Source: Leucobacter exalbidus (GTDB taxonomy: Bacteria; Actinomycetota; Actinomycetes; Actinomycetales; Microbacteriaceae). From it: 64,000 nucleotides of DNA. This document shows, piece by piece, positions 6,793-27,296 of this stretch; positions within the stretch are counted from its first letter, which is position 1, and every line of letters starts with the position of its first letter. A model generated the notes under the pieces. The model was not told the origin of the DNA, made no database searches, and worked only from the letters and a program-made list of their open reading frames with translations. Both the position numbers and the translations under genes were made by a program. The stretch covers positions 1,612,001 to 1,676,000 of the forward strand of contig NZ_JAFIDA010000001.1 in assembly GCF_017834145.1 (NCBI RefSeq), written 5' to 3'.

Positions 6793-7618
6793 CGTTCCAT
6801 CGATCAGAGAGCTGATTAGCCAGGTTCCCTGGGAAGGCCCGGCTGTGAAATGCTGGTGCCCAAGTGCCTTGAGCTTTATGCTGTGCTGAGGCGCGCAGTA
6901 CGTCAGCGATGTAGCCGCCCCAGTACCCGAAAGTTGAGTTGGTCAAGATGAGTCTTGGCGATGCAGCCAGTAATGCCAGCTGGTGCAGCACGGTAGCTCC
7001 CGCGGGTGGTTCACTCACGGGCGCGATGTCAGTGAGCCACCCGAGTTTCGTGTGGCACCATTCGAGGTCATCACTCACCAGCAATATGGAAGTGATCTCG
7101 CCGGTTGCCTGCGCAGCGGCAACCGCCACACGCACGTACTCAACGACGTCGAACGAATAGTCACCGCGCCAGCGCGGCACACTGTAGTAGTCGCCGCGGC
7201 GAATATTGATTGTCAGGTCTGCGGGCGGATTGATTCGGGCGAGTTCACTAGCAAACTGCGTAGGTGTGCCAAGCAGCATCTCCGCGATAAATGCGTCGAG
7301 CTCTGCACCGGTGTAATTCAGTCCAAAGTGTTGCAGGGGGTGCTGTTCGATGCGTCGATCAGTCAGTCTCAGCTCGCTGCGAGAGATCACCAACTCTTCA
7401 AAGAGCTTGGGGAAGGCTTCCTGCCAGAGCTTTGATTTTTCAGTCTCGAGTGCGAATCGGGGCTCCCCTTTCGCCTGATGCAGGTGCGCATTCAGCCAGT
7501 AGTAGAGGAGATTACCGAGGTTTACATTTGCCGGTGTCCACAGCACTTCCCGAGGGCCCCGGCGCACAACGCTGAGCAGTGAGGCCTTGGCCTGGGAAAG
7601 CGACAGGTTGGGCATCAT
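6758..7618 (-). CDS. Alpha-1,2-fucosyltransferase-like glycosyltransferase (GT11)
   Basis: A 286-residue protein with two GT11 hallmarks: INIRRGDYY near residue 140 (the HxRRGDY-type GDP-fucose site, here with Asn-Ile before the arginines) and ILTNSTFGYWGGY near residue 225. Such enzymes transfer fucose, or a related deoxyhexose, onto galactose-type acceptors. It is the last gene of the long minus-strand polysaccharide operon and its start overlaps the exporter stop by 4 bases. No GDP-fucose synthesis genes are visible in this window, so the donor is inferred from the family only. Confidence 0.82.
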   Translation of the reverse strand: MMPNLSLSQAKASLLSVVRRGPREVLWTPANVNLGNLLYYWLNAHLHQAKGEPRFALETEKSKLWQEAFPKLFEELVISRSELRLTDRRIEQHPLQHFGLNYTGAELDAFIAEMLLGTPTQFASELARINPPADLTINIRRGDYYSVPRWRGDYSFDVVEYVRVAVAAAQATGEITSILLVSDDLEWCHTKLGWLTDIAPVSEPPAGATVLHQLALLAASPRLILTNSTFGYWGGYIADVLRASAQHKAQGTWAPAFHSRAFPGNLANQLSDRWNVIEQIPGGWDG

Positions 7619-9426
7619 GAGAGCTTTCCAAGTTCCACCAGTCGCGCAAACTGCTCGTTCCGTTCGCTCACCTGCGCGAAGGTTCCCTCCGTCTGTACCT
7701 GTCCATCGCTCAAGAAGACGATCTTGTCGGCGTCGCGCACCGTTGAAAGTCGATGCGCGACGATCACGACGGTCATGCTGCCTTTGAGACTTTTGAGCAG
7801 CTGCGAGATGGCATGCTCTGTAAGGTTATCAAGTGAGGAGGTCGCTTCGTCCAAGACTAAGAACCTTGGTTCCTTATATAGGGCTCTGGCGATGCCAAGC
7901 CGTTGCCGCTGTCCTCCGGAGAGCCGCATACCCCGCTCACCAATGACTGTTTCGGTGCCTTCTGGCAGGTCGGCGACAACGTCTTCGAGCTGGGCGAGCT
8001 TGAGTGCCCGGTCAAGCCTCGTCTGGTTCGCGACCGTGCCGGGTGGGCCGAACGCCACGTTTCTGGCGAGCGTATCGTTCAGCAGATAGACGTCTTGCGC
8101 CACCACCCCAAGCTCGCGATACCAGGCCGCAATGTCTGCGGAGATCGAACGCCCACCGCAGGTAATGTCACCGCTTGTGGGGCGCAGCATTCCCAGGATG
8201 AGATCGACGAGGGTGCTCTTGCCCGCACCGCTCGAACCTGTGATCGCTACGGTCGAGTTTTCTGGAATCACCAGTGAAATACCGTCAAGCACGGGGCGCT
8301 CGGCATCCTCGTATTGCAGAGTCACGTTATCAACGACAATGTCACCGGAATAGTTTTGATCCCCCAAGGGAATCTCGTTGTGTCGCGGCCCGCGTTCCAG
8401 TTCCTCCGCTTCGGTCAGCACGATCGTTAGCCCCGCACGGCTGCTACGCACCGTCGCAAGGCTTGCGCCCACCCTGTTGAGCGTAGGAAGCGCTCGCAGG
8501 GCCGCTGCACCGAACACCGCGAGCACGCTCATCGCGTGGTCTGGGGTCCCCGTCGCGAACAAAATCAACGCGATGCCGCCAATGGCGAGCAACAACACTA
8601 TCTCCATCAGATACCTAGGCAGTTCTGAAGTGATCGAGAGCATACGCGTCGCGTGTGCAAGCTTCATACGCGCTTTCCAGTAGCCGTCGGCGAAAGCGCC
8701 AGCGCTACCTGAGAGTCGTACATCTTTGAAACCGTGCAAAGCAGGAATTAGATACTGAAGACTGTTCAGCTCGGCCTCAGCGTTCTCGATGCCGATGCGT
8801 GTCTGGCGGGCGCGCAGCAATCGCTGCGTGCCCATCAGCACGACCCCAAAAAGGAACGCTGCGAACAATGCAACAAACGGTGAGATCACAAACAGCACGA
8901 CGCTTAGTAGCACCAGTACCAGCAGGTCAGCGAGCATACCCACGACACCCAGTAATACGTTGGCGGCATGATCGTTCGCGCTACCAACGTCACGCTGAAT
9001 GCGCACGGCCTCGCGGGCGCGGTGCCGTGCGAAGGGTTCAAGGCTGAACATGCGCATCAGCTCGGTCGAGGCATCGGCCGCGATGCGGGTCGTGCGTCCG
9101 AGTAACCACCAACGAAAGAAGACTGTGCCCACGCTCTTAGTAACGAAGAACCCAGCGATCGCTATCGCAATGATCATGATCAAGGTCGATGTACTTGGTC
9201 CGCCAAAGAGCTGCGAGATGAAGTTCGCGACACCACCCTGTGATGCGGGGTCGGTAAACACTTGCATGAGCAACGCCATCGCGGCGACACCCAGGGTGTC
9301 GAGGGCAGCCAGCCCCACTGATCCGAGCACCGCGAATACGAGCCATGCTCGTGAGGTCATACGGGCGAGCGCAAGATATTCCTTAAGGTCGGCGATCAGG
9401 GAACGCTTCGCTGGGGTGCTCGTCAT
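7615..9426 (-). CDS. ABC exporter, fused permease and ATPase (PglK/MsbA type)
   Basis: A half-transporter of 603 residues. Six membrane helices (about 25-330) are followed by a nucleotide-binding domain with Walker A (ITGSSGAGKSTLVDLIL), signature LSGGQRQRLGIARAL, Walker B FLVLDEATSSLD and the switch histidine in IVAHRLSTV. It works as a homodimer. No Wzx-type flippase is seen in the locus, so this exporter may flip the lipid-linked oligosaccharide as PglK does; that role is inferred from position. It overlaps both neighbours by 4 bases. Confidence 0.88.
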   Translation of the reverse strand: MTSTPAKRSLIADLKEYLALARMTSRAWLVFAVLGSVGLAALDTLGVAAMALLMQVFTDPASQGGVANFISQLFGGPSTSTLIMIIAIAIAGFFVTKSVGTVFFRWWLLGRTTRIAADASTELMRMFSLEPFARHRAREAVRIQRDVGSANDHAANVLLGVVGMLADLLVLVLLSVVLFVISPFVALFAAFLFGVVLMGTQRLLRARQTRIGIENAEAELNSLQYLIPALHGFKDVRLSGSAGAFADGYWKARMKLAHATRMLSITSELPRYLMEIVLLLAIGGIALILFATGTPDHAMSVLAVFGAAALRALPTLNRVGASLATVRSSRAGLTIVLTEAEELERGPRHNEIPLGDQNYSGDIVVDNVTLQYEDAERPVLDGISLVIPENSTVAITGSSGAGKSTLVDLILGMLRPTSGDITCGGRSISADIAAWYRELGVVAQDVYLLNDTLARNVAFGPPGTVANQTRLDRALKLAQLEDVVADLPEGTETVIGERGMRLSGGQRQRLGIARALYKEPRFLVLDEATSSLDNLTEHAISQLLKSLKGSMTVVIVAHRLSTVRDADKIVFLSDGQVQTEGTFAQVSERNEQFARLVELGKLS

Positions 9427-11513: not shown

Positions 11514-13757
11514 TTAGAGCCACTTCTCGAGACGCTCGAGCGCGGTCCAAAAACCCTCACCATGGTTGATGTGGCCCTGCCAGATCTCGGGAATGAACGG
11601 GGTGCCGGGTGACAGCCGTTCCATCGCCGTCGCGAACTCAGGCCAGTCGATATCCCCTTCGCCCACCTGCACGCCTTCGCCATCAACACCGGTCGCGTCG
11701 ACCAGGTGCCAGTGAATGGTGTGGGGGGCGAGCAACTCGACAGCTTCAGAGAAGGGCACCCCGAGGAACGTCGCCGCAAGCTTGGTGTGTGAGGCGTCAA
11801 AGCAGAGTGCAGTGCCCGTGCGCTCGGCAAACTCTGCGGTGTCGCGCGGGTCGAGGAACAGGTTGTGAAACTGCTGCCCGCCCATCAGCCACGGGAACGG
11901 GGGCAGGGTCTGTGCGGCGATACGCACGCGGCCGGTATCGAGGCGGGCCAGAGCTGCCGCGATGCGATCGTACTTGCGCAGACGCTCAGAGGCCGGAATG
12001 TGCCGGTCCTTGGTGAACCCGCCCATCGTCACCACCATGATCGGGTCTGTTTCGTTGGCGAACCAGCGAGTCAGGCTGCTCGTGACCTCGATGGTGCGCT
12101 GTACCTCGCGAATCGATCGCTCCCAGATCTCATCATCCTCAGATGCAAGATCCACCAAGAAGTCGCCCGCGAACAGGTCGGGCAGGTGCGTGGTGAAGCC
12201 AATATCTAACGGCTCGGTGAAGTAATCTTCGAGGTTTACCTCGAGATCCTTGTACGAGAAGTGAAACTCGAGGAAGTCGGGGTTTGACTGGGCCAATAGC
12301 TCGGCGTGGTCGTGATAGCGCACCGGCAGACCCCACGGCCGGTTGAAGTCGAAGTCACGGCCCGTGGGGGTGTGATCGCGCAGGTCACCGGCGAAGAAGA
12401 AATCGCCCTCTGCCATGTCGCGCCTAATCGTGCGACCGAGCAACGCAGGAAGCGTGTTGGGCTGCAGACCACGGCCGGGGCTGCGCACCTGCACGTCTTC
12501 GGCAACCAGCGTGCTGCCTTCGAGAATCGGGCGAGCGGCCACCAGCGACTTCGCGAGGTTGATGCGGTTCATCGCCTCGCCTGTCGAGACCACGCGTTCT
12601 TGGTTCGTACCGATCGCGGTTTCGATGTCTCTGATCTCGCGCACCATGCGTGCGAACTCGTCGGGAAGCAGCGATACGGTGTGGTCGTTGCCCTCCATCG
12701 TCTGGTCGACGGTGAAGTGCTTCTCGATGATGTGGGCGCCGCGGGCGACCGCTGCAACCGGCACGTGCCAGCCGCGCTCGTGCCCCGAGTAGCCGACGAG
12801 GCATTCGCCCAGTTCAGCAAGACGATCCATGTAGGCAAGGTTCAGATCCTTGTATGGCGCGGGGTAGGTCGACTGGCAGTGCAGCAGTGCGTACGACGCT
12901 CCGCGCCGGCGCAGCAGCCCGATGGTCTCAATGATCTCTTCTTCGCGAGACATGCCGGTGCTCAGCAGCATCGGCAGCCCACGCGAGGCGGCGTCTTCGA
13001 GCAGCTCGTGATTCGTGAGGTCAGCCGAGGCAATTTTGAGGCCTGGAATCCCGTAGTCAACGAGTGCCTGCACGCTAGGGCCATCCCACGGGGTACACAT
13101 GACGTCGATTCCCACATCGCGAGCGTGGTCGAAGACGTTAAATAGCGACTCAGCAGGCATTGAGAAGCGCCGCAGCAGGTCGAGGGTGTACTGCACGCCC
13201 ATGTCTTCGCCCGCGGTCTGGCCGCCGCTTTGACGGTACAGCGCATCCATGTCGCGCAGCTGAAATTTCACGGCGTCGGCCCCGGCCTCGGCCGCGAGGT
13301 CAACAAGTTTCTTGGCGAGATCGATCGAACCGTTGTGGTTGTTGCCGACCTCCGCGATCAGGAAGGCCGGGTGGCCGTCACCAATTTCGTGGGCGCCGAT
13401 ACGCATCGTGTCGCTGCGGTCGACGGCCACGGCGACCAGGTGCCCGCGGTCATCGACGAGCGGAATGTGACTGATGCCCTCGCGAAAATGGGGCAGAATA
13501 TCGGCGGGCAACGCCGTGCTCGACACCGTCTGCACCTGAGTGTTGCAGGCATCGCCGACGGAAGTGTCGAGCGAGGCCGTGGGGTTCGTTACGATCCAGC
13601 GGCGAAAGTCGCCGTCTGAGAATGAGCCTCGCAGCACGCCGTGCGTATCGACACAGAAGACGATGCGCTGTCGGTTCGCGTTGATCTTGCCCAGTGCGGC
13701 GAGAATCGGATCCTCGGCAAAGACGATGTACGGCGTCAGTTGACGGTCGATAATCAT
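11514..13757 (-). CDS. CBS - NeuB (nonulosonic acid synthase) - SAF - sugar isomerase-like TIM barrel fusion
   Basis: An unusually long 747-residue NeuB-family protein; stand-alone NeuB is about 340-350. A CBS-domain pair occupies about 1-113 (GVLRGSFSDGDFRRW, ISHIPLVDDRGHLVAV). The NeuB TIM barrel spans about 122-385, with FLIAEVGNNHNGS, ADAVKFQLRD, CTPWDGPSV, LLSTGMS and EKHFTVDQTMEGNDHTVSL. A SAF/antifreeze-like domain follows (about 395-465, LEGSTLVAEDVQVRSPG). A second barrel (about 480-745, FLEFHFSYKD, CFDASHTKLA, HWHLVDATGVDGEGV) resembles xylose isomerase-like sugar isomerases. NeuB proteins condense phosphoenolpyruvate with an N-acyl sugar to make nonulosonic acids. The function of the added domains is unknown. 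It overlaps the CMP-sugar synthetase start by 4 bases, so a shared pathway is likely. Confidence 0.88.
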   Translation of the reverse strand: MIIDRQLTPYIVFAEDPILAALGKINANRQRIVFCVDTHGVLRGSFSDGDFRRWIVTNPTASLDTSVGDACNTQVQTVSSTALPADILPHFREGISHIPLVDDRGHLVAVAVDRSDTMRIGAHEIGDGHPAFLIAEVGNNHNGSIDLAKKLVDLAAEAGADAVKFQLRDMDALYRQSGGQTAGEDMGVQYTLDLLRRFSMPAESLFNVFDHARDVGIDVMCTPWDGPSVQALVDYGIPGLKIASADLTNHELLEDAASRGLPMLLSTGMSREEEIIETIGLLRRRGASYALLHCQSTYPAPYKDLNLAYMDRLAELGECLVGYSGHERGWHVPVAAVARGAHIIEKHFTVDQTMEGNDHTVSLLPDEFARMVREIRDIETAIGTNQERVVSTGEAMNRINLAKSLVAARPILEGSTLVAEDVQVRSPGRGLQPNTLPALLGRTIRRDMAEGDFFFAGDLRDHTPTGRDFDFNRPWGLPVRYHDHAELLAQSNPDFLEFHFSYKDLEVNLEDYFTEPLDIGFTTHLPDLFAGDFLVDLASEDDEIWERSIREVQRTIEVTSSLTRWFANETDPIMVVTMGGFTKDRHIPASERLRKYDRIAAALARLDTGRVRIAAQTLPPFPWLMGGQQFHNLFLDPRDTAEFAERTGTALCFDASHTKLAATFLGVPFSEAVELLAPHTIHWHLVDATGVDGEGVQVGEGDIDWPEFATAMERLSPGTPFIPEIWQGHINHGEGFWTALERLEKWL

Positions 13758-14476
13758 ACAAATTCTCCATTCGCTATGCCGTGCAGGTCACCCAGAACCT
13801 GCTCGGCGATCCTGAGATCTACCAACGTGTCAATATCAATTCCCTCGGCCTCATCCATAACGAAGAGACCGACCTTGCCACCGATGCGGTTGTGTTCACG
13901 CTCGTATATTTCGGTGCGTGTGAGGTACAGCGAGCCGGTTTCACGGTAAAAATAGTCCGTTGCGCGCAGGTCTTGGCGCAGCGGTCGGTGCGCCGGATCA
14001 TACTCGGCCGTAGCCGAGGTCTCCCCCGGTGCTGCCGGGTGCCAAAAAAACGGCGTCTGCGGGACCACGCCTACGAGGCTGTCGACCCCGGTCTCGAGGA
14101 ACTGCTGCACCGCACGATCGAGGGTGTCGGGCAGGCGCACCGGCGAGGTCGCTTGCAGCAGCATCACGGCGTCAGGCCGGCGGCCCTCAGCCGTGCAGTG
14201 CGCGATCGCGTGTTCGATCACGGGCTCTGTTTGTGTGGCATCCTGTGCAAGCTCGGCCGGGCGCATAAACGGTACGCTCGCGCCGGCTTGACGCGCAATC
14301 TCAGCGAGTGCTTCGTCATCGGTTGAGACGATTACTTCGAGGTTCGCGGTGGCCGCGAGGGCCTGCTCGATGCTCCAGGTGAGCAGGGGTTTACCTGCCA
14401 ATGGACGAGCGTTTTTACCTGGCACGCCCTTGGATCCGCCGCGCACGGGGATCACGCAAAGTATCTTCTGTGTCAT
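13754..14476 (-). CDS. Acylneuraminate (nonulosonate) cytidylyltransferase
   Basis: A 240-residue NeuA-family CMP-sugar synthetase. The nucleotide-binding signature is VIPVRGGSKGVPGKNARPLAGKPL at the N-terminus, followed by VIVSTDDEALAEIA and the catalytic-region patch VMLLQATSPVRLPDTLDRAV. It activates a nonulosonic acid with CTP to the CMP-sugar used by glycosyltransferases. It sits directly upstream of the NeuB fusion with a 4-base overlap. No hydrolysing UDP-GlcNAc epimerase (NeuC-type) or pseudaminic/legionaminic pathway genes are visible here, so which acid is made cannot be told. Confidence 0.9.
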   Translation of the reverse strand: MTQKILCVIPVRGGSKGVPGKNARPLAGKPLLTWSIEQALAATANLEVIVSTDDEALAEIARQAGASVPFMRPAELAQDATQTEPVIEHAIAHCTAEGRRPDAVMLLQATSPVRLPDTLDRAVQQFLETGVDSLVGVVPQTPFFWHPAAPGETSATAEYDPAHRPLRQDLRATDYFYRETGSLYLTRTEIYEREHNRIGGKVGLFVMDEAEGIDIDTLVDLRIAEQVLGDLHGIANGEFV

Positions 14477-16508: not shown

Positions 16509-17482
16509 GGCTGTACCTGCTTCGTCACGTTTGTGCGCGGGCGGGCTGATCGGCGTTTGGCCTCGCGTGCTGAGTCGTGCACGGTGGAGAGTTCACGGCG
16601 CAGGGTGGTCATGGGTTGCTCGGGTTTGCCGAGTAGTCGGCGCAGGCCACCAAATGCGAAGTTGACCAATGAGGCAGCGACGAGTGCTACACGCATGCTG
16701 CCTGCGCCGGTGCCCCAGGTGCGTGCGTACAGAAATCGTGAGGTGAGCAGCCAGCTCAAGCGTCGGCCGGAGTCTGATGAGGCCCCGCCCTCGTGGGCCA
16801 CGGTGACGTCACCTAGATACACGGAGGGGATGCCGTGGTCACGTAGTTTGCGCTGCAGATCAGTTTCTTCGCAGTACATGAAGAAGCGCTCGTCGAGACC
16901 GCCCACCTCACGGTAGAGCTCAGTGGGTACGAGCAGCGCGGCTCCCACCAGCCAGTCGGTGACGGCCGTAGTTCCAGGTACGCAGCGGGTATCGTGACCG
17001 ACTGCCTCATGTAGGGCAGAGCGGTTGCGCCACCTGGCAAGCGGCCTGAGCCATTCAACTGCATAGTGGCTGGTACGGGGAAAGTGTCGGCCCGACATTT
17101 GGGCCGTCCCGTGTAGGTCAACAAGGGCGGGGCCCGCAACGGCGGGCTGCCAGGGAGCGGCCGCTCGCAGCAGGTTCTCCACGAATGATGGCGGCAGCAC
17201 GAGGTCGCTGTTGAGAATGAGCAAGAGCCGTTTGGTTGCTAGTGCTACGCCGCTGTTCACTGCGCTGCCAAAACCGCCGTTGCGTGCACGTCGGAACACC
17301 CGCGCCGCTGTTGAAGGCGGAAAGGGTTCGGGCGAGCAGTCGTCAACCACGATGATTTCGAGGTCTGCACCGCCCGGCTGCCCGCGCAACTCGTCCACGA
17401 GTACTTCGGCAAGCGCGGGGTCACCGTAGTGCGGCACGATGACCGATACGTCGCCGGGTGCCAACTCAGCCCAGGCAGTCAT
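16505..17482 (-). CDS. Glycosyltransferase family 2 protein, rhamnosyltransferase-like
   Basis: A 325-residue GT-A transferase. It carries VSVIVPHYGDPALAEVLVD, EIIVVDDCSPEPF, NGGFGSAVNSGVALA, the metal site LNSDLVLPPSFVENLL and FFMYCEETDLQRKLRDHG. The pattern from NGGF to the ETDL motif is that of WbbL-like rhamnosyltransferases; the donor is inferred only. A C-terminal basic tail (KRRSARPRTNVTK) follows a possible amphipathic segment. Overlaps of 4 bases with both neighbours suggest translational coupling. Confidence 0.87.
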   Translation of the reverse strand: MTAWAELAPGDVSVIVPHYGDPALAEVLVDELRGQPGGADLEIIVVDDCSPEPFPPSTAARVFRRARNGGFGSAVNSGVALATKRLLLILNSDLVLPPSFVENLLRAAAPWQPAVAGPALVDLHGTAQMSGRHFPRTSHYAVEWLRPLARWRNRSALHEAVGHDTRCVPGTTAVTDWLVGAALLVPTELYREVGGLDERFFMYCEETDLQRKLRDHGIPSVYLGDVTVAHEGGASSDSGRRLSWLLTSRFLYARTWGTGAGSMRVALVAASLVNFAFGGLRRLLGKPEQPMTTLRRELSTVHDSAREAKRRSARPRTNVTKQVQP

Positions 17483-18003
17483 CGAATCGCTCCGATTCCC
17501 CGCAGCGTGACCGCGAGCAGCTGGTGGATTTCGGCGGCCGCGGCTACGGCAGCCGCAGGGCCCAGCCCCACGGGGTCAGCGAAGTCATCGGCTTCTGTGT
17601 ATGCCCGGTCGTCGTTGACGCACAGGCTCACGCCTTCGGCACGCCTGGGTGGGTTCTCGAGCAGCTGGGCCGCACGGCGCAGTGTCAGGGTGCGCCTGGC
17701 GGCGACCGGAAAATTGCGCACAACGAAGTCACGGTGCGCACGCTCGAACGTAAGGATCAGGTCTGCGGCGTCAATGTGGTCACCGTCGATCTGACGAGCG
17801 CCCCGGCTTCCCGCTGTATCGATACCGTAGGCGGCGAGCGCCTGCCCCATGTCAGTGTCAACCGGGTGCCCGGTGAGCGCGTGTACCCCGGCACTGTCGA
17901 ACTCCCAGTCTCCGTTCACCCCGTCGTAGTCACGCGCGAGCAGTTCTGCTGCGCGTGACCGCACGATGTTGGCGTGACAGACAAATAGGAGGTGACGTGT
18001 CAC
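17479..18003 (-). CDS. Low-molecular-weight protein tyrosine phosphatase (Wzb-like)
   Basis: A 174-residue LMW-PTP. The phosphate loop CHANIVRS begins at residue 10, matching C-X5-R-S with catalytic Cys and Arg, and the general-acid region is read as FADPVGLG near the C-terminus. It lies one gene after the tyrosine autokinase with a 4-base overlap, the Wzb/Wzc arrangement. It most likely removes phosphate from the kinase's C-terminal tyrosine cluster and so sets polymerisation and chain length. Confidence 0.9.
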   Translation of the reverse strand: MTRHLLFVCHANIVRSRAAELLARDYDGVNGDWEFDSAGVHALTGHPVDTDMGQALAAYGIDTAGSRGARQIDGDHIDAADLILTFERAHRDFVVRNFPVAARRTLTLRRAAQLLENPPRRAEGVSLCVNDDRAYTEADDFADPVGLGPAAAVAAAAEIHQLLAVTLRGIGAIR

Positions 18004-19502
18004 TCGGTGCTCCGTCGGCCCCGGCGGCCCGACTGAGCTTCAGCGGCCGCAGCGTCGTCTGCAGGTGTAGGGCCAGCCTGGGGTGCGCCCTGCTGGGGGG
18101 CGTCTTCGAATACCAGTGGGGTCTCAGGCGCCGCGTTGGCGGCTTCTGACTCCTGCAGGTAGTACCCGCGGTTCTTTTTGCTGTAGTAGTAATACCCGTC
18201 GCCGCCATCGTTCTTGGTGACGCCGTTCAGCACCACGCCAAGCATGCGGGCGCGAGCACCCTCGAGCAGCTTGTGCGCGCTGCGCACCTCTGGCTTGGTG
18301 GTTTTGCCCGAGCGCGCGACAAAGATCACTCCGTCGACGATGGTGCTCGCGAGTGCCGCGTCAGTCACAGGTAGTACCGGCGGGGCATCGATGATGACGA
18401 ACAGCTCTTTACTGAGCCGTTCGACCGTGCTCTTCATGTGCGCCGAGCCCACGAGTTCGGAAGGGTTTGGCGGGGTGACGCCCGAGGGCAGCACAAACAG
18501 GTTCTTCTGGTTCGTGGCGCGTAGCGCATCGTTGAGCGTGATCTGCCCGCTCAGCAGGCTACTGAGACCGACCGAGCCGTCAATGTTGAGGGCGTTCGCC
18601 ACGGCAGGGCGGCGCAGATCGGCATCGATGATGAGGGTGCGTACCCCCGACTCTGCGAGCATACGTGCGAGCGCTACCACCACAGTGGTCTTGCCTTCGC
18701 CCTGGTTGGCGCTGGTGACAACGATGCTGCGTACCTCTGAGTCCACGCTCGAGAAACGTAGGTTGGTGCGCAAGTGGCGAAAGGCTTCGGCTCCCAGCCG
18801 GTCGAGCTCGGGCAACCCTTGCTCGTTTTTCTTAGGCTTCCCCATTCTGGGGATGAGTGCGAGGAGGCCTAGTCCACCCGCAGATTCGGTGAGGTCATCG
18901 GCGCTGCGCACCTTGATGTCGAGGATGCGACGCAGCAGCTGATAGGCGAGGCCGAGCGCGAAGCCGGCTGCCGCGCCCATGAGCATGTTGCGCATCCAGT
19001 TGGGAGAAGATGGCGACGCGGGTGCTACGGCGTTCTCGAACGGAGTGACCGTTACGAGAGCCACTTCATTGCCCGAGGCCTCCTGCTCGATCTCGCGAAT
19101 CACGTCAGCGAGCGCTTCGAGGGCACCGTTCGCGAGTGCGGCTGCGCCTTCAGATGACTCTGCTCGAGCGGTAACCGTGATCATGGCGCTCTGGGCAACG
19201 AGATCAGCACTCAGGCTACCGCGCACCTTCTCCGGGGCTACTTCAAGGTCGGGGTTTTCTGCAATGCGCTCAACCACGGCGTTACTCGTAATGAGTGCGA
19301 GGTAGGCCTGAATGCGGTCTGTTTTCTCTTGTGCAACGACGCCGCTCTCTGCGGATCCCTGCATAAAGCCCGACGAGCTCGCGGTATACACCGGAGTCTG
19401 AGTTGCAGAGTAGGCAGCCCCCGAGGCGAGCCCAATGAGCACCGCGAAGAAGAAGAAAATCCAACTTCTTCTCAACATCAGAATAAAGTCCGCAACAGTC
19501 AA
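18000..19502 (-). CDS. Polysaccharide co-polymerase / tyrosine autokinase (Wzc-like BY-kinase)
   Basis: A 500-residue one-piece bacterial tyrosine kinase. A Wzz-type N-terminal part has two membrane segments (about 15-35 and 168-188) flanking an external domain. The cytoplasmic kinase has Walker A VTSANQGEGKTTVVVALA, Walker A' LIIDADLRRP and Walker B FVIIDAPPVLPVTDA. A tyrosine-rich patch (GDGYYYYSKKNRGYYLQ) near residue 435 is the expected autophosphorylation cluster, followed by an acidic/alanine-rich tail. The start is TTG at 19502 with GAGGGGAG about 5 bases upstream. It is the first gene of the 11-gene minus-strand operon. Confidence 0.92.
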   Translation of the reverse strand: MTVADFILMLRRSWIFFFFAVLIGLASGAAYSATQTPVYTASSSGFMQGSAESGVVAQEKTDRIQAYLALITSNAVVERIAENPDLEVAPEKVRGSLSADLVAQSAMITVTARAESSEGAAALANGALEALADVIREIEQEASGNEVALVTVTPFENAVAPASPSSPNWMRNMLMGAAAGFALGLAYQLLRRILDIKVRSADDLTESAGGLGLLALIPRMGKPKKNEQGLPELDRLGAEAFRHLRTNLRFSSVDSEVRSIVVTSANQGEGKTTVVVALARMLAESGVRTLIIDADLRRPAVANALNIDGSVGLSSLLSGQITLNDALRATNQKNLFVLPSGVTPPNPSELVGSAHMKSTVERLSKELFVIIDAPPVLPVTDAALASTIVDGVIFVARSGKTTKPEVRSAHKLLEGARARMLGVVLNGVTKNDGGDGYYYYSKKNRGYYLQESEAANAAPETPLVFEDAPQQGAPQAGPTPADDAAAAEAQSGRRGRRSTE

Positions 19503-21922: not shown

Positions 21923-23587
21923 CTATCGCTGAGTGTGATGCCCTGCGTACCCTGTGCCCAGCTTCAGATCGAGCACGTTGAGCACACCGAGGGCACGCAC
22001 ATTCAGGGCGGCCTCGTGGTATCGCGGGGTCTGAACCTTAGGGTTGTTGGCATCGTAGGCCGCGGACTGCGGGGTCTCCCACTGCTCGTTGAGAATAATC
22101 GCAACGACGTTGGTCAGCACCTGGAACACATTGCCGAGCAGCGCATTCAAGACATCAAACACGGCATTGAGCGCGCCCGCAGGGGCCAGCAGGTTTGTGA
22201 TCGCGTCAAGTACAAACTGGCCCACGCCACCGAGCAAACCATTAATGAGCGCGTCGAACCCTAGAATTGGTGCCCCGAGAACCCTTAAAGTCGCAGTAGC
22301 CGTGCCTTCAAGGAACTGCCGAAGGGTTCCCTCGAGCAGCAATCCGGTTGCCAGGAGCCCGCTCACTGAACCCAGCGTGACCTTGAGGTATACCGCGTCG
22401 AGCAGCCGCGGGATCAGGGAGTCAATTACCCAGCCGCGCACGATGTCAGTGACGCCAGAACCGGGGATCGGAATGTCGACGAACAGCTGGCTATTGGGCG
22501 GCTGGTTGTTGAGCAGCGTCGAGAGCTGGCCGTCGTAGGCACCGCCCAAAAGTGTTTCGAGGTCGAGGGTCAACTCGCCCGTGTTGAAGTCGATCTGCAG
22601 CCCGGCCGGCTGTGTTGCGGGAATCGGCTCCGCGGTGAGCGAGGCTGCATCGACGGTGAGCTTCACGGTCAGCGTCTGGTTCAGCAGCGTCCCCAGCAAG
22701 TGACCAATAGGGCCGAGGAGCTGGCCAATGAGCGCAGTGAGCGCCTGGGTGTCGATCGTGATGGTCTGAATCGCCTGAATTACGCCTTGCAGCAGGCCAG
22801 CGACGATGAGCTCGGCCTTCACCACCAGCTTCAGGTACGCGATCACATAGTCGCGCTCGACCTCGGTCATGAGGTCGGGGGTCTGGCAGAGCGAATCGAG
22901 GCGAGCGTAACCGCCCACTGCACCGATAATCAGGTCGAGGTCGGCGATCTGCGCGAGCAGCTCGGCGACGCCCGGGCCCGTGAGGTTCTCAAGGATCGCC
23001 TTCAGGCTGAGGGTTGCCAGCTGCGGGGCTTCGGCCTTGAGGCTTTCGAAGTTGATCGCACCGCTTGAGTCGCTCACTGCACCAGATGCACCGTGGGTGT
23101 AACCCACGAGAGCTGCGGCTTCTACGAGGCCCGGCTCTTCGTGTGCATAGGCATACTGTGCGAGGGCGCCGGTGTCTGCAGGGGCTGCAAACGCGAGCAC
23201 GTCTGACAGCACGTTGCCGAGCCCATTGAGGTTCAGCAGAACACTGCTGAGCAGCTGAACCGAGAGCGGGCTGACGTTCGTCTGAGACGACTCGGGCGAA
23301 GATGCAAGCTCGATAGCGTTAGCGGGAACGACCTGAGCGATGGCATCGAGATCAATACCGAGCAGGTTACCGCCAAGCAGTCGTCCCTGTGCTTCGGTGT
23401 CGAAGAGGGTGCCCGCCGGCGCACAGGCGTCAAAGCTCGCCGCGAACGCGGGGACTGCCTGGCTCATCATGATGGCGGGCGCGGCCCAGCCAGCTCCAAT
23501 GAGCACGTTACGTCGATTTACCTCAGGTAGTCGAAACGCGCTGCCCGCAGAGGGTTTTGGCGCGCCTAATTCATTTTTCGATTCCAC
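21923..23587 (-). CDS. Tat-exported choice-of-anchor G family protein
   Basis: A 554-residue exported protein starting at GTG with GGGGGG upstream. A twin-arginine signal (EVNRRNVLIGAGWAAPAIM, probable cleavage after AFA near residue 50) is followed by a Leu/Gly/Asn-rich body with many LLxxLxGxx turns (for example LLGNVFQVLTNVVAI). The C-terminal pattern ALNVRALGVLNVLDLKLGTGYAG is typical of actinobacterial choice-of-anchor G proteins. These are thought to be surface-exposed or wall-associated, but no LPXTG or membrane tail is seen here. It lies within the polysaccharide locus and is divergent from the nucleotidyltransferase set. Confidence 0.78.
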   Translation of the reverse strand: MESKNELGAPKPSAGSAFRLPEVNRRNVLIGAGWAAPAIMMSQAVPAFAASFDACAPAGTLFDTEAQGRLLGGNLLGIDLDAIAQVVPANAIELASSPESSQTNVSPLSVQLLSSVLLNLNGLGNVLSDVLAFAAPADTGALAQYAYAHEEPGLVEAAALVGYTHGASGAVSDSSGAINFESLKAEAPQLATLSLKAILENLTGPGVAELLAQIADLDLIIGAVGGYARLDSLCQTPDLMTEVERDYVIAYLKLVVKAELIVAGLLQGVIQAIQTITIDTQALTALIGQLLGPIGHLLGTLLNQTLTVKLTVDAASLTAEPIPATQPAGLQIDFNTGELTLDLETLLGGAYDGQLSTLLNNQPPNSQLFVDIPIPGSGVTDIVRGWVIDSLIPRLLDAVYLKVTLGSVSGLLATGLLLEGTLRQFLEGTATATLRVLGAPILGFDALINGLLGGVGQFVLDAITNLLAPAGALNAVFDVLNALLGNVFQVLTNVVAIILNEQWETPQSAAYDANNPKVQTPRYHEAALNVRALGVLNVLDLKLGTGYAGHHTQR

Positions 23588-23704: not shown

Positions 23705-24712
23705 ATGAATAGTTTGTTATCGGGGTTTCGTGAACTCGTCAGAGGGGAGAAGCTGATGGCCTACGACGATCCACGCGCCCTTGGCACCAGCCTCTCACTC
23801 GAAGAAGCCGTTCCTCTTGTCACCGCGTTCGCCGGCCAGCTGGCGGCCCGACACGGGGTGCGCATGCTGGTATTGAAAGGCCCGCAGGCCGCAGCAGATG
23901 GGCTCAGGGGCCCGCGCTCCTCCTACGATGCCGACCTGCTCGTTGATCCATCCCAGCTCGACCTATTTGTTGAGGCGCTGGGCCGCGCTGGCTGGACCAC
24001 ACGCCCCGCCCCGGGCTTCCCCATGCTGTTGCCACCGCACTCGGTCAGCCTGTCTCACCCAGGCTGGTCGGTCGACATCGACCTGCACTGGAACTGGCCC
24101 GGGTTTCTGATGCTCGAGGCCGATGCCTTCGAAATACTCTGGAACAGGCGACGCCGGGTGCAACTCGCGGGAGCACCGATCGATGTGCCGAGCCGGGCCG
24201 ATGCAGCACTCATTCTCGCGCTGCACGTACTGCGGGAGTCACGCAATCTCACACAGGTGCGGCGCCGTGCCGCCGAATACCAGTTTCTGGTCGAAGCAGT
24301 GAACGCCGATCCAAGCACCCGCGCCCTGGTGCGCGACTACGCCCGCGAGCTCAATGCCGAGCAGACGGCGAACCCGTTTTTGCGCGCACTGGGTTTCACC
24401 GACTTTGAACAGCCGTCCGCTGACGCCGAATACGACCAGCATCTGCAGGCGTGGCTGCTGCATCAGGCGTCAGATCACGCCGTGGCCGGATGGGTGCACG
24501 AGCTGTCACGGGCGCCGCTGTGGCGCAAACCCCTCGTCGCTGTTCACGCCGTATTCCCCTCACCCCAGGCACTGCGCGCCGCCGACCCGTTTATCGGGGC
24601 CGGCCCCTGGCAGCTCGCGCGTGGCTGGTGGCGACGCACCCGCCGCGGCCTGCGTACTGCGGCGAGCGCGCGTAAAGCCCTGCAACGCACGACAGAATTG
24701 CACGCGTCGTGA
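23705..24712 (+). CDS. Nucleotidyltransferase family protein (PF14907-type)
   Basis: A 335-residue protein of the uncharacterised nucleotidyltransferase family found in polysaccharide and RiPP-like loci. Visible motifs are MLVLKGPQAAADGL, the metal-binding YDADLLVDPSQLDLFVEAL near residue 80 (D-A-D), a second acidic patch VDIDLHWNW near residue 120, and ALILALHVLRESRNL. The C-terminal third is variable. The substrate is unknown. It overlaps the PqqD-like gene by 4 bases, and an HprK-like kinase lies nearby on the other strand, the usual trio for this family. Confidence 0.8.
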   Translation: MNSLLSGFRELVRGEKLMAYDDPRALGTSLSLEEAVPLVTAFAGQLAARHGVRMLVLKGPQAAADGLRGPRSSYDADLLVDPSQLDLFVEALGRAGWTTRPAPGFPMLLPPHSVSLSHPGWSVDIDLHWNWPGFLMLEADAFEILWNRRRRVQLAGAPIDVPSRADAALILALHVLRESRNLTQVRRRAAEYQFLVEAVNADPSTRALVRDYARELNAEQTANPFLRALGFTDFEQPSADAEYDQHLQAWLLHQASDHAVAGWVHELSRAPLWRKPLVAVHAVFPSPQALRAADPFIGAGPWQLARGWWRRTRRGLRTAASARKALQRTTELHAS

Positions 24713-24978
24713 TGTGGCGCAGGGCCGAGGTTGCCTCGGTGGAGTCATTGGAGCGGGCGGCCGTTATGCCGCTAAGCGGAGACCTGTCGCACCCACCCCT
24801 GGTTCTTGAGCGTCAGGCGGCAGCGGTGTGGCATGTGCTCCGCACAGAACCCCGCGCCGAGGCCGACATTGTCGCCGATGTCGCGCAGCTGTATGGGGTG
24901 GATTCCGCACTCATCGCCGAAGACGTGCGGGCGTTCTTGGCAGAGCTGGCGCAGCAGGGGCTCGCGCTAGTCGAGTGA
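24709..24978 (+). CDS. PqqD-like small protein (RRE domain)
   Basis: An 89-residue protein with the PqqD pattern: a strand with PLVLERQAAAVWHVLRTE, then a three-helix part AEADIVADVAQLYGVDSALIAEDVRAFLAELAQQGLALV. PqqD-like domains bind leader peptides in RiPP pathways, but no radical SAM enzyme or precursor peptide is visible here. GTG at 24709 overlaps the nucleotidyltransferase stop; the ATG at 24712 is an equal choice. The 3' end overlaps the convergent LCP gene by 12 bases. Confidence 0.78.
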   Translation: MMWRRAEVASVESLERAAVMPLSGDLSHPPLVLERQAAAVWHVLRTEPRAEADIVADVAQLYGVDSALIAEDVRAFLAELAQQGLALVE

Positions 24979-26124
24979 TGCGGCGTAGTCGTGCACTGTG
25001 CCGTCGCGAAACGCTGCGCGCACGCCCTCGAGTTCTTTCCAGTCGGGCTGCACGATGGACTGGCCATCTGCCGAGGTGGCGGTGCCGAGCGTGGGGCTCG
25101 TGAACATCTTGATGCCGCCCTGGCGCAGCCCGCGGCTGTCGAAGCCCAGCGACACCGCGCTTTGTAGGTTGAGGCTGTCGCTGAGCGTGAGGTAGGGCCT
25201 GATCGCCTGGAACGTGCCGGTGATCTTGCCCGCGTTACCGAGGGTTTCCCCGCTCATGAGTTCACCCATCAGGGCTTTCAGGTACTTCTGCTGGTTGCGC
25301 ACGCGCTGGTAATCGCCGTCGCTGAATGCGTACCGCTCGCGCACAAACGACAGCGCCTGTTCGCCGTTCAGCGTGATCTCGCCCTCCTTGAAGGTGAAGT
25401 CACCGCCACCGTTTTGGGCCGTGTACGCAATGTCGTTGTGCACGGTCACCCCGCCCACCGCGTTGGTGAGCCCTTCGAAGGCGTCGAACCCAATCAGGGC
25501 GACGTGGTCGATGCGCGCATCGATGAAGTTTTCGACAGTGTTGACGGTGAGGGCGAGCCCTCCGTGCGCGGCCGCGGCGTTGATCTTGGCTTCGCCCACG
25601 CCCTGCACCTCGACCCAGTTGTCGCGCATGATCGACATGATGGTGAGGTGTTCGCGGTCGGGCGAGAGCTGCGCGACCAAGATGGCGTCGGTGCGGAAGC
25701 CGCGCTGTTGCTCGCCCGCATCATCGGTGTCGGCGGGTTCGCGGGAGTCTGAACCGAGCAACAGAATGTTGATCGGCTCGCGCTCGCCCGCGGCGACCTT
25801 CACGACGGCGGGGCGTTTGAGCGTGGGATCTTGCTCGATGCTGATGCGGTCGATACCGTTGAACGCCACCATGAGCAGGGCGTACGCGGTGCCGAGCATC
25901 AACACGAGCACACCCAGCACGATGAGCCAGTTGCGCAGCAGTCTCTGGCGGCTGCTGCGTTTTGACCGGCGCCTGCGGCGACCGTGACCGGTTTTTGAGG
26001 AGCTTGAAGACCGCCGGGTGCGCGGTTGCGCATCGCCCTCAGCGTCGCTTGCGCCCACTGGCGTCCCGTCCTCTGCCGAGCCTTCAAGCTCAGTAAGGAT
26101 GTCAGAAATAGAGGCCTCGTCCAT
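24967..26124 (-). CDS. LytR-CpsA-Psr (LCP) family glycopolymer-peptidoglycan ligase
   Basis: A 385-residue membrane protein with an acidic then Arg/Ser-rich cytoplasmic tail (about 1-62), one membrane helix (LIVLGVLVLMLGTAYALLMV) and an extracellular LCP domain. Family motifs are INILLLGSDSRE, RTDAILVAQL, IMSIMRDNWVEV (family Arg-Asp), KINAAAAHGG and TLNGEQALSFVRERYAFSDGDYQRVRNQQKYLKAL. LCP enzymes move undecaprenyl-linked polymers to peptidoglycan, so this is the likely anchoring step for the polysaccharide made by the locus. It lies 41 bases after the HprK-like gene on the same strand. Confidence 0.92.
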   Translation of the reverse strand: MDEASISDILTELEGSAEDGTPVGASDAEGDAQPRTRRSSSSSKTGHGRRRRRSKRSSRQRLLRNWLIVLGVLVLMLGTAYALLMVAFNGIDRISIEQDPTLKRPAVVKVAAGEREPINILLLGSDSREPADTDDAGEQQRGFRTDAILVAQLSPDREHLTIMSIMRDNWVEVQGVGEAKINAAAAHGGLALTVNTVENFIDARIDHVALIGFDAFEGLTNAVGGVTVHNDIAYTAQNGGGDFTFKEGEITLNGEQALSFVRERYAFSDGDYQRVRNQQKYLKALMGELMSGETLGNAGKITGTFQAIRPYLTLSDSLNLQSAVSLGFDSRGLRQGGIKMFTSPTLGTATSADGQSIVQPDWKELEGVRAAFRDGTVHDYAASLD

Positions 26125-26165
26125 CGCCGTCCCCTCTTCTGCCGAATGACCGAGAGCCTACACCG

Positions 26166-27296
26166 TCATGCGGGCGAGGTGGGCAGCACACCGGCCTCGC
26201 GCAGTTCAGCGATAGTGGTGGCAACGTAGTGCGCCGGATCAATGCCCGTCTCGGCCGGAGGTGTTCCGAAGCGAGCTACTACCCGCGCGGCGAGCTGCTC
26301 AGCCGCGTCACCAGCGAGTGCGCCCTGCCACACCTCGGCGGCCACATCGCTCAGGGCGTGCAGGTGCTGGGCGGCAAACACCAGCGCCTCCCCAGATGCG
26401 AGCACGATCGCGTCGCCCGCGCCCGAGCGTTCCACGAGGTGATCGGGTACCGGGTGCCACGCTTCGGCGGTGCCGGGCGCCAAGAGTTCGGCTGCCAGAC
26501 GCGGGAAGGCTTCGCGCACATCGGCGGCCTCGCGGTAACTCAGCGACCACACTCCGCCCACCTCGCTGATGGCCTGGGCGAAGCGCTGGAGCGGCCCGGG
26601 CAGTTGCGCCGAGTAACTGCTTTGGGCGAGTAGTTCTCCGAGCGCCTCACGCAGGGACACCGGCCGCAGCGTGGGGGCTGATGGACCCGCCGCTGCCTCG
26701 GCTCGTGGCGCGGCCGCAGCGCCTTGCCGGTCCAGCAGCACGAGGGCTGCGAGCCGCAGCGGAGCTTGCGGAAGCTCGCGCAGCCCGAGGCCGCTGGGGG
26801 CGAGCTGCTGTTTGCTGCGCCCAGGGGTCACGACCGAGAGGGGTTTGCGGTACGGGTACACGCGCAGCTGTTCGTCGAACGCGATGGTCTCGTCTGACAC
26901 GTACCCGTGCAGCTCGCTGAGCATGCGCGTCAACGTCGTTTTGCCGTGGCCCGAGGCGGCCACGAAGCAGATCACGCGGCCGTCTGCGAGCGCGATCCCG
27001 CCGGCGTGCAGCATCGCGAGTTGCCCGGCGCGCAGCAGCAGGGCGGCCTGGGTGATCTCACTCGACAGCGACTCCATAAAGCGGTCGGCATGGGCTGTGG
27101 CGGGAAATACGATGCCTGCGGGAGCACCCGCGTCACGGTCTGCCTCGCTGCCGGCGGGTGCGGCGGCATCGTGCCAGGCCGTGCGCACCCGCTCAGCGAG
27201 ATCTGGTGCGGCAGGTGGTTCGGCCGCCGTCACCAGCTCGCTCAGCGGCAGCCGCAGTACGGCGCCGAGGGCACTGATGTCGAGATACCCGCTCAT
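26166..27296 (-). CDS. HPr kinase-like protein with C-terminal PqqD-like domain
   Basis: A 376-residue protein. The kinase core has a P-loop CFVAASGHGKTTLTRML at 110-126 (Ala where the first P-loop Gly usually sits), then DETIAFDEQLRVYPYRKPLSVV, where YPYRKPLS matches the conserved HprK-like block. The last 70 residues (GEALVFAAQHLHALSDVAAEVWQGALAGD ... IAELREAGVL) look like a PqqD/RRE domain, giving a kinase-PqqD fusion. Such HprK-like kinases sit with PqqD and nucleotidyltransferase genes; some lasso-peptide relatives phosphorylate a serine. The start is ATG at 27296; open frame upstream reads into the methyltransferase gene. It lies 10 bases after the methyltransferase stop, and the Shine-Dalgarno is weak. 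Confidence 0.78.
   Translation of the reverse strand: MSGYLDISALGAVLRLPLSELVTAAEPPAAPDLAERVRTAWHDAAAPAGSEADRDAGAPAGIVFPATAHADRFMESLSSEITQAALLLRAGQLAMLHAGGIALADGRVICFVAASGHGKTTLTRMLSELHGYVSDETIAFDEQLRVYPYRKPLSVVTPGRSKQQLAPSGLGLRELPQAPLRLAALVLLDRQGAAAAPRAEAAAGPSAPTLRPVSLREALGELLAQSSYSAQLPGPLQRFAQAISEVGGVWSLSYREAADVREAFPRLAAELLAPGTAEAWHPVPDHLVERSGAGDAIVLASGEALVFAAQHLHALSDVAAEVWQGALAGDAAEQLAARVVARFGTPPAETGIDPAHYVATTIAELREAGVLPTSPA

Follow-up and report, generated by a model that had tools for sequence, protein, structure and literature searches.

The locus described here combines an HprK-like kinase and a nucleotidyltransferase (NTase) with two PqqD domains and lies in a stretch of 64,000 nucleotides from Leucobacter exalbidus (contig NZ_JAFIDA010000001.1, positions 1,612,001 to 1,676,000; hereafter the window). 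One described system with similar parts is that of the linear polyphosphorylated peptides (LPP) of Bacillota. According to its published account, a discrete PqqD-type element binds a leader of the form [Y/W]xxPx[LVIFA], an HprK-like kinase phosphorylates the core serine S3, 18 residues past the motif tyrosine, and a SipW-like signal peptidase cuts the leader with the assistance of the RRE, the recognition element known from ribosomally synthesized and post-translationally modified peptides (RiPPs) (Popov et al., Nat Commun 2026, PMC13381572). The precursors, of 35-200 amino acids (aa), are encoded in the cluster along with an MsbA-like exporter, and LPP is said to be restricted to Bacillota (PMC13381572). 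Similarly, in the lasso peptide pseudomycoidin the kinase PsmK phosphorylates a serine, to whose phosphate PsmN reportedly attaches one or two hexoses (PMC8498205, PMC9266682); for this hexosylation a host glycosyltransferase was not excluded (PMC9266682). In the PEP-CTERM/exosortase system, as its authors describe it, a sorting signal sits on diverse proteins, was discovered because it co-occurs with an enzyme, and has ties to exopolysaccharide genes (Haft et al. 2006, PMC1569441). Searching the open-licence literature in PMC, we found no link between PqqD/RRE domains and signals for twin-arginine translocation (Tat), also not in the papers located that mention both.

A first-pass annotation of the window had regarded the NTase, a stand-alone PqqD and the kinase with a PqqD of its own as a single system whose PqqDs should bind a leader; it had seen no substrate nearby and had considered either a distant peptide or a polymer, lipid or LCP-linked substrate. 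This interpretation stands in part. The genes do behave as one system, the kinase does end in a PqqD, and the expectation of leader binding appears right in the light of a co-occurring signal with the motif WxxPx[IVL]. On the other hand, a predicted substrate does lie next door, and a link to LCP is not supported.

A Tat-type signal and its co-occurrence with the enzymes

The gene adjacent to the NTase gene, divergent from it with start codons 117 bp apart, encodes a choice-of-anchor G family protein that matches NF033766 with 129.5 bits (cut-off 45). Its N-terminal region fits a register defined by RR (-9, -8), W (0), P (+3), a hydrophobic residue (+5), P (+12) and S (+17), with ungapped spacing from RR to serine; the corresponding residues are R25 R26, W34, P37, I39, P46 and S51. 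From this alignment, WxxPxI is the predicted leader motif and Ser51 (codon 23435-23437) the predicted modified residue. Its twin-arginine is followed by a hydrophobic segment and an A-x-A site, and the signal is predicted to be of the Tat type.

We collected 168 such signals, 165 of them distinct and with tryptophan, the other three having Ile or Leu at this position. Among the 165, RR is found in 164, [LVIFA] at +5 in 161, proline at +12 in 163 and serine at +17 in 154; WxxPx[LVIFA], P+12 and S+17 occur jointly in 149, and K or R precedes the tryptophan by four positions in 92. The motif behind the profile demanded RR, A/G at -2, W and the first P, and called for small or aliphatic residues in the W-to-P interval; D/E/R/K/H/W/C were barred from the eight positions following that P, where an apolar make-up was preferred. 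It made no demand on P+12 or S+17. For comparison, 41 other Tat-like signals collected with a crude motif have serine at +1 in five cases and at +2 in six. Looser Tat motifs were discarded and their counts left unused because they matched wrong frames in random windows. The signal-bearing proteins of kinase loci range from about 90 to 940 aa counted from RR. Pfam scans of ten signal proteins gave no domain at E 0.01 in any, and NCBIfam scans of nine (one a 97-aa piece) found no family.

To follow the signal across genomes we used a 42-column profile of 61 rows, A4. The window signal, itself one of the 61 rows, scores E=2.7e-14 and is the sole A4 match in its genome. The survey covered 297 genomes of the order to which L. 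exalbidus belongs. The kinase matches 98 of them at 1e-3; 58 were kept (2.3e-9 or better), and the 40 dropped (1.9e-6 or worse) look like generic P-loop matches. The NTase was found in 56 genomes, 52 of which we call strong (6e-41 or better), with G090, G093, G122 and G225 set aside. Kinase and NTase occur jointly in 53 of the 297 genomes and mostly still share a genome where they do not lie in one stretch. The signal was detected in 59, often several times per genome. All 52 strong-NTase genomes have both kinase and signal, versus a signal in 7 of the 245 others. Because the training signals of A4 came from the vicinity of kinases or NTases, we checked for circularity: the 27 strong-NTase genomes that contributed no sequence to A4 all carry the signal, against the same 7 of 245. 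The link also holds inside genera among the genomes listed (92 of the 297); one genus (g3), for example, has five genomes with both, seven with neither and none discordant. In a sample of the phylum the signal appears in only 2 of 198 genomes, both members of the order. The NTase profile matches nine of the 198, namely two in the order with the signal and seven others (2.3e-25 to 6.3e-8) without it. We are highly confident that the signal and the kinase/NTase set are functionally linked.

The same association is seen at the level of loci. After removal of four duplicates (L104, L105, L160, L170) from 140 kinase loci, 136 remained besides the window; as controls we used 40 further windows, drawn from 20 of these genomes, and 20 Wzz/BY-kinase loci of genomes lacking the kinase. 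With a strict motif, at least one signal gene was found in 53 of the 136 kinase loci but in none of the 40 and none of the 20 controls. Searched with A4 and without deduplication, 29/60 and 49/80 kinase loci were positive, training loci included, and so were 4/20 NTase-only loci, against 0/40 and 0/20 controls. The signal genes are scattered in the genome, many of them outside the kinase locus, as seen in ten genomes chosen for their many signals. One 20 kb stretch (L054) contains two kinase copies, two Wzz/BY-kinase genes and two signal proteins.

A signal peptidase gene accompanies the kinase in 38 of the 136 loci (L035, L045, L051, L073, L082, L093 and others) and in none of the 60 controls. 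We take it to be LepB-type, judging its motifs by eye. The window has no match to the profile of this gene, although a LepB-type profile might overlook a SipW-like peptidase. LCP, in contrast to the expectation of a linked substrate, occurs in only 14 of the 136 kinase loci and was rejected as a system partner; we therefore treat it as a neighbour. Two further families were observed near the kinase: a membrane protein named DoxX/MauE-like by eye in 30/136 kinase loci versus 0/60 controls (L067, L051, L078 and others), and a family of about 309 aa (c36; L094 and others) near 18 kinases and, by profile, in 22/136 kinase loci and no control window. A Microbacterium-like kinase locus, with 48% identity to that of the window in the best segment, was found in an assembly labelled Stenotrophomonas maltophilia P13 (L101) and is probably assembly contamination.

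The enzymes and their two types of PqqD

The kinase has the PEPCK/HprK-superfamily fold with P-loop and DE residues present, and in sequence it resembles HprK models only weakly. Its C-terminal PqqD scores below the PF05402 gathering threshold (18.8 versus 23.4 bits); further tests support the domain proposed in the first-pass annotation, as this region shows the winged-helix fold of an RRE and its nearest relatives in the PDB are PqqDs of the lasso and LPP types. Pfam confirmed the other two assignments, the PF14907-type NTase and the stand-alone PqqD (Table 1). The NTase keeps K58-G59, D75-x-D77 and D126-x-H128, which are invariant or nearly invariant columns in 33 sequences. A profile of the stand-alone PqqDs beside NTases matches TbiB1, PbaB1, TfuB1, PqqD and LppB. 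Searches of the PDB with the enzymes themselves gave little: the NTase profile had one match (E 0.0045), to an unrelated protein, and the kinase profile was dominated by P-loop matches from other ATPases.

The PqqDs fall into two types. Type K is represented by a profile of 91 kinase-fused domains, which include that of the window kinase by construction, and type N by 28 stand-alone PqqDs beside NTases, among which the window's was placed by position. The two profiles separate cleanly, with 44 of 44 domains (16 type K, 28 type N) correct on leave-one-out. In the 16 kinases with tandem PqqDs, the first domain is K and the second N throughout, in L142 by one bit only. Next to kinases without a detected tail, 20 of 21 PqqDs within 60 bp score K, and the exception has a K-type neighbour at its kinase. 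Given this tandem order and the PqqDs beside tail-less kinases, type K by sequence belongs to the kinase and type N to the NTase, fused or split freely. Compared with the binding pocket of PbaB1, the fit is loose for type N and poor for type K; we give this comparison little weight since any fold of this kind has hydrophobic residues at its core positions.

Three Demequina-like kinases (L038, L040, L042) carry a low-molecular-weight phosphatase-like domain fused in front. Judged by eye, the usual position of the catalytic cysteine appears lost, so the domain may be a pseudo-phosphatase.

In the window the predicted substrate, kinase, NTase and two PqqDs span 5.4 kb (Table 1). Among 20 window proteins scanned with Pfam (2.7-29 kb, not every open reading frame) there was no macrolactam cyclase or B2 protease and no lasso cyclase or radical SAM enzyme; by eye, lasso/RiPP enzymes were also absent from the common gene clusters of kinase loci, which were not scanned for them. 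The polymer made by the surrounding polysaccharide locus probably contains a nonulosonic (sialic-acid-like) sugar, because a NeuB-type synthase with CBS and isomerase-like parts adjoins a cytidylyltransferase (11514-14476). An ABC transporter, the part to be compared with the MsbA-like exporter of LPP, lies at 7615-9426 and is not tied to the kinase/NTase set.

Table 1. Features of the window discussed in the text.
Feature	Coordinates	Strand	Details
Tat-signal choice-of-anchor G family protein, predicted substrate	21923..23587	-	554 aa, GTG start
Signal of this protein, residues 23-51	23435..23521	-	sequence read directly
PF14907 nucleotidyltransferase (NTase)	23705..24712	+	Pfam 54.7 bits
Stand-alone PqqD, type N	24709..24978	+	PF05402, 42.6 bits; 4 bp overlap with NTase end
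LCP glycopolymer ligase	24967..26124	-	PF03816, 139.5 bits; between the two halves of the system
HprK/PEPCK-superfamily kinase	26166..27296	-	H97, P-loop S115-T121, D135-E136
C-terminal PqqD domain of the kinase, type K	26166..26486	-	residues 271-376; Pfam stretch 310-369
Wzz/BY-kinase of the polysaccharide locus	18000..19502	-	TIGR01007, 186 bits
Low-molecular-weight protein tyrosine phosphatase (LMW-PTP) of the polysaccharide locus	17479..18003	-	PF01451, 60.8 bits

A proposed mechanism and its rivals

On balance we favour an LPP-like tailoring set in which the leader is a Tat signal, the substrates are whole exported proteins, and kinase and NTase tag a serine. The substrates would be Tat-targeted proteins with the signal RR-x4-GAAWxxPx[IVL]-x6-P-x4-S, in the window the choice-of-anchor G protein. 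In the cytoplasm, the type-K PqqD for the kinase and the type-N PqqD for the NTase would bind WxxPx[IVL] in the hydrophobic part of the signal, much as RiPP recognition elements grip lasso and LPP leaders. This step by itself, the reading of the WxxP signal by the PqqD domains, we consider probable. The kinase would then phosphorylate the conserved serine, which would fall near residue +1 or +2 once the protein is mature; onto this phosphate the NTase would add a nucleotide, or a sugar as reported for PsmN. The tagged protein would be exported by Tat and its signal cut by a signal peptidase, so that the tag remains on the new N-terminus.

Several observations weigh against this proposal. Deletion of the NTP (nucleoside triphosphate) transferase gene of LPP, LppN, had no detectable effect in the published host (PMC13381572). 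By the strict motif, 83 of the 136 kinase loci lack a signal gene in the retrieved stretch. Among the surveyed genomes, seven have the signal without a strong NTase (G011, G076, G090, G103, G107, which is weak, G222 and G286); six of these show no PF14907 match and G090 only sub-cut-off pieces, and the kinase is present only in G286. Conversely, the kinase occurs without the signal in G108, G122, G164, G190 and G246, and a weak NTase without it in G093, G122 and G225, the PF14907 protein of G122 scoring 109.8 bits. Finally, the position of the PbaB1 pocket divider F83, where phenylalanine is kept in 27 of 45 type-N PqqDs, is mostly alanine in type K (34/57; threonine in the window), so type-K PqqDs, by their sequences, may bind in a mode different from PbaB1.

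Proteins of the DmsD/TorD type act as chaperones or proofreaders of Tat signals, and the PqqDs could do likewise, holding precursors until they are folded while kinase and NTase regulate and leave no tag. The position of WxxP inside the Tat signal suits such a role, which predicts the co-occurrence with kinase and NTase equally well. What it leaves unexplained is the serine at W+17, behind the likely cleavage site and as well kept as described above, together with the match to the LPP register, and we regard it as improbable.

Kinase and NTase might instead target a protein of the polysaccharide locus, such as Wzz/BY-kinase or LMW-PTP, or the polymer itself, the signal proteins being co-inherited matrix proteins. 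Wzz/BY-kinase is indeed found in 90 and LMW-PTP in 68 of the 136 kinase loci, and the phosphatase-like domain fused to the Demequina-like kinases points the same way. However, Wzz/BY-kinase, which we also rejected as a defining partner, is present in 193 of the 297 genomes, far more than the 58 with the kinase or the 56 with the NTase. The Wzz/BY-kinase loci of genomes lacking the kinase have no signal (0/20), though LMW-PTP is present in 17 of the 20, and the signal genes go with the enzymes even though they are often at a distance from the kinase. We regard this explanation as improbable, too. A conventional RiPP set whose short precursor peptide was overlooked would employ enzymes of the kinds found in LPP and paeninodin-type clusters; with the co-occurring signal sitting on whole proteins of the sizes given above, we consider it very improbable, although no systematic search for conserved short open reading frames was made.

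Should the tailoring of Tat-exported proteins prove true, it would bring RiPP leader recognition together with protein export, two hitherto separate fields, as a PqqD reading a Tat signal would make that signal an export code and a modification code at once. It would also assign a function to generically annotated kinases, NTases and PqqDs, as well as to a group of exported actinobacterial proteins without a Pfam domain in any of the ten scanned. Because the window brings the predicted substrate, both enzymes and both PqqDs so close together, the proposal is directly testable there.

Comparison with known systems

With LPP, as published, the present set has in common an HprK-like kinase, an NTP transferase, a discrete PqqD/RRE and a place in polysaccharide loci. 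The LPP transferase, for which the main text gives no Pfam number, is likened to PF14907 by enzyme kind. Both systems show the leader [Y/W]xxPx[LVIFA], here with W34, P37 and I39, and a serine just behind it, at Tyr+18 in LPP and Trp+17 here. Leader removal of the signal-peptidase type, predicted here, would be a further likeness, with a locus peptidase, where present, that looks LepB-type by eye here and is described as SipW-like in LPP. Unlike LPP, the leader here is a Tat signal, the hosts are Actinomycetota, and two PqqD types are fused to or stand beside the enzymes. The predicted substrates also differ in size, with 554 aa in the window and up to about 940 aa elsewhere, and many are encoded outside the locus.

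The paeninodin and pseudomycoidin pathways, as far as their reports describe them, resemble the set in having a serine kinase, an NTase and a PqqD (B1) for WxxP leaders; their serine lies at the C-terminus of the lasso peptide, whereas here it would lie at the N-terminal side of the product. The HPr-rel-A system (TIGR04352/TIGR04353), compared by model names and scores only, likewise pairs an HprK-like kinase with a PqqD from the same naming group; the window kinase scores 22 bits against TIGR04352 (cut-off 200), far too low, and the PqqD 25.1 bits against TIGR04353 (cut-off 35), also below the cut-off.

The likeness to PEP-CTERM, as presented in its description, concerns a signal on diverse proteins, its discovery via co-occurrence with an enzyme and the link to exopolysaccharide. 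In this context, a more far-reaching idea, which we offer as a tentative possibility, is that the set does for Gram-positive bacteria what PEP-CTERM does elsewhere: a Tat signal serving at the same time as a RiPP-type leader would mark many unrelated surface proteins for phosphoglycosylation of an N-terminal serine, and through the sugar-phosphate they would be tethered to the exopolysaccharide that this locus makes, or be polymerised into it. Unlike in PEP-CTERM, the signal here is N-terminal and of the Tat type, and the enzymes are a kinase and an NTase rather than an EpsH-type protein.

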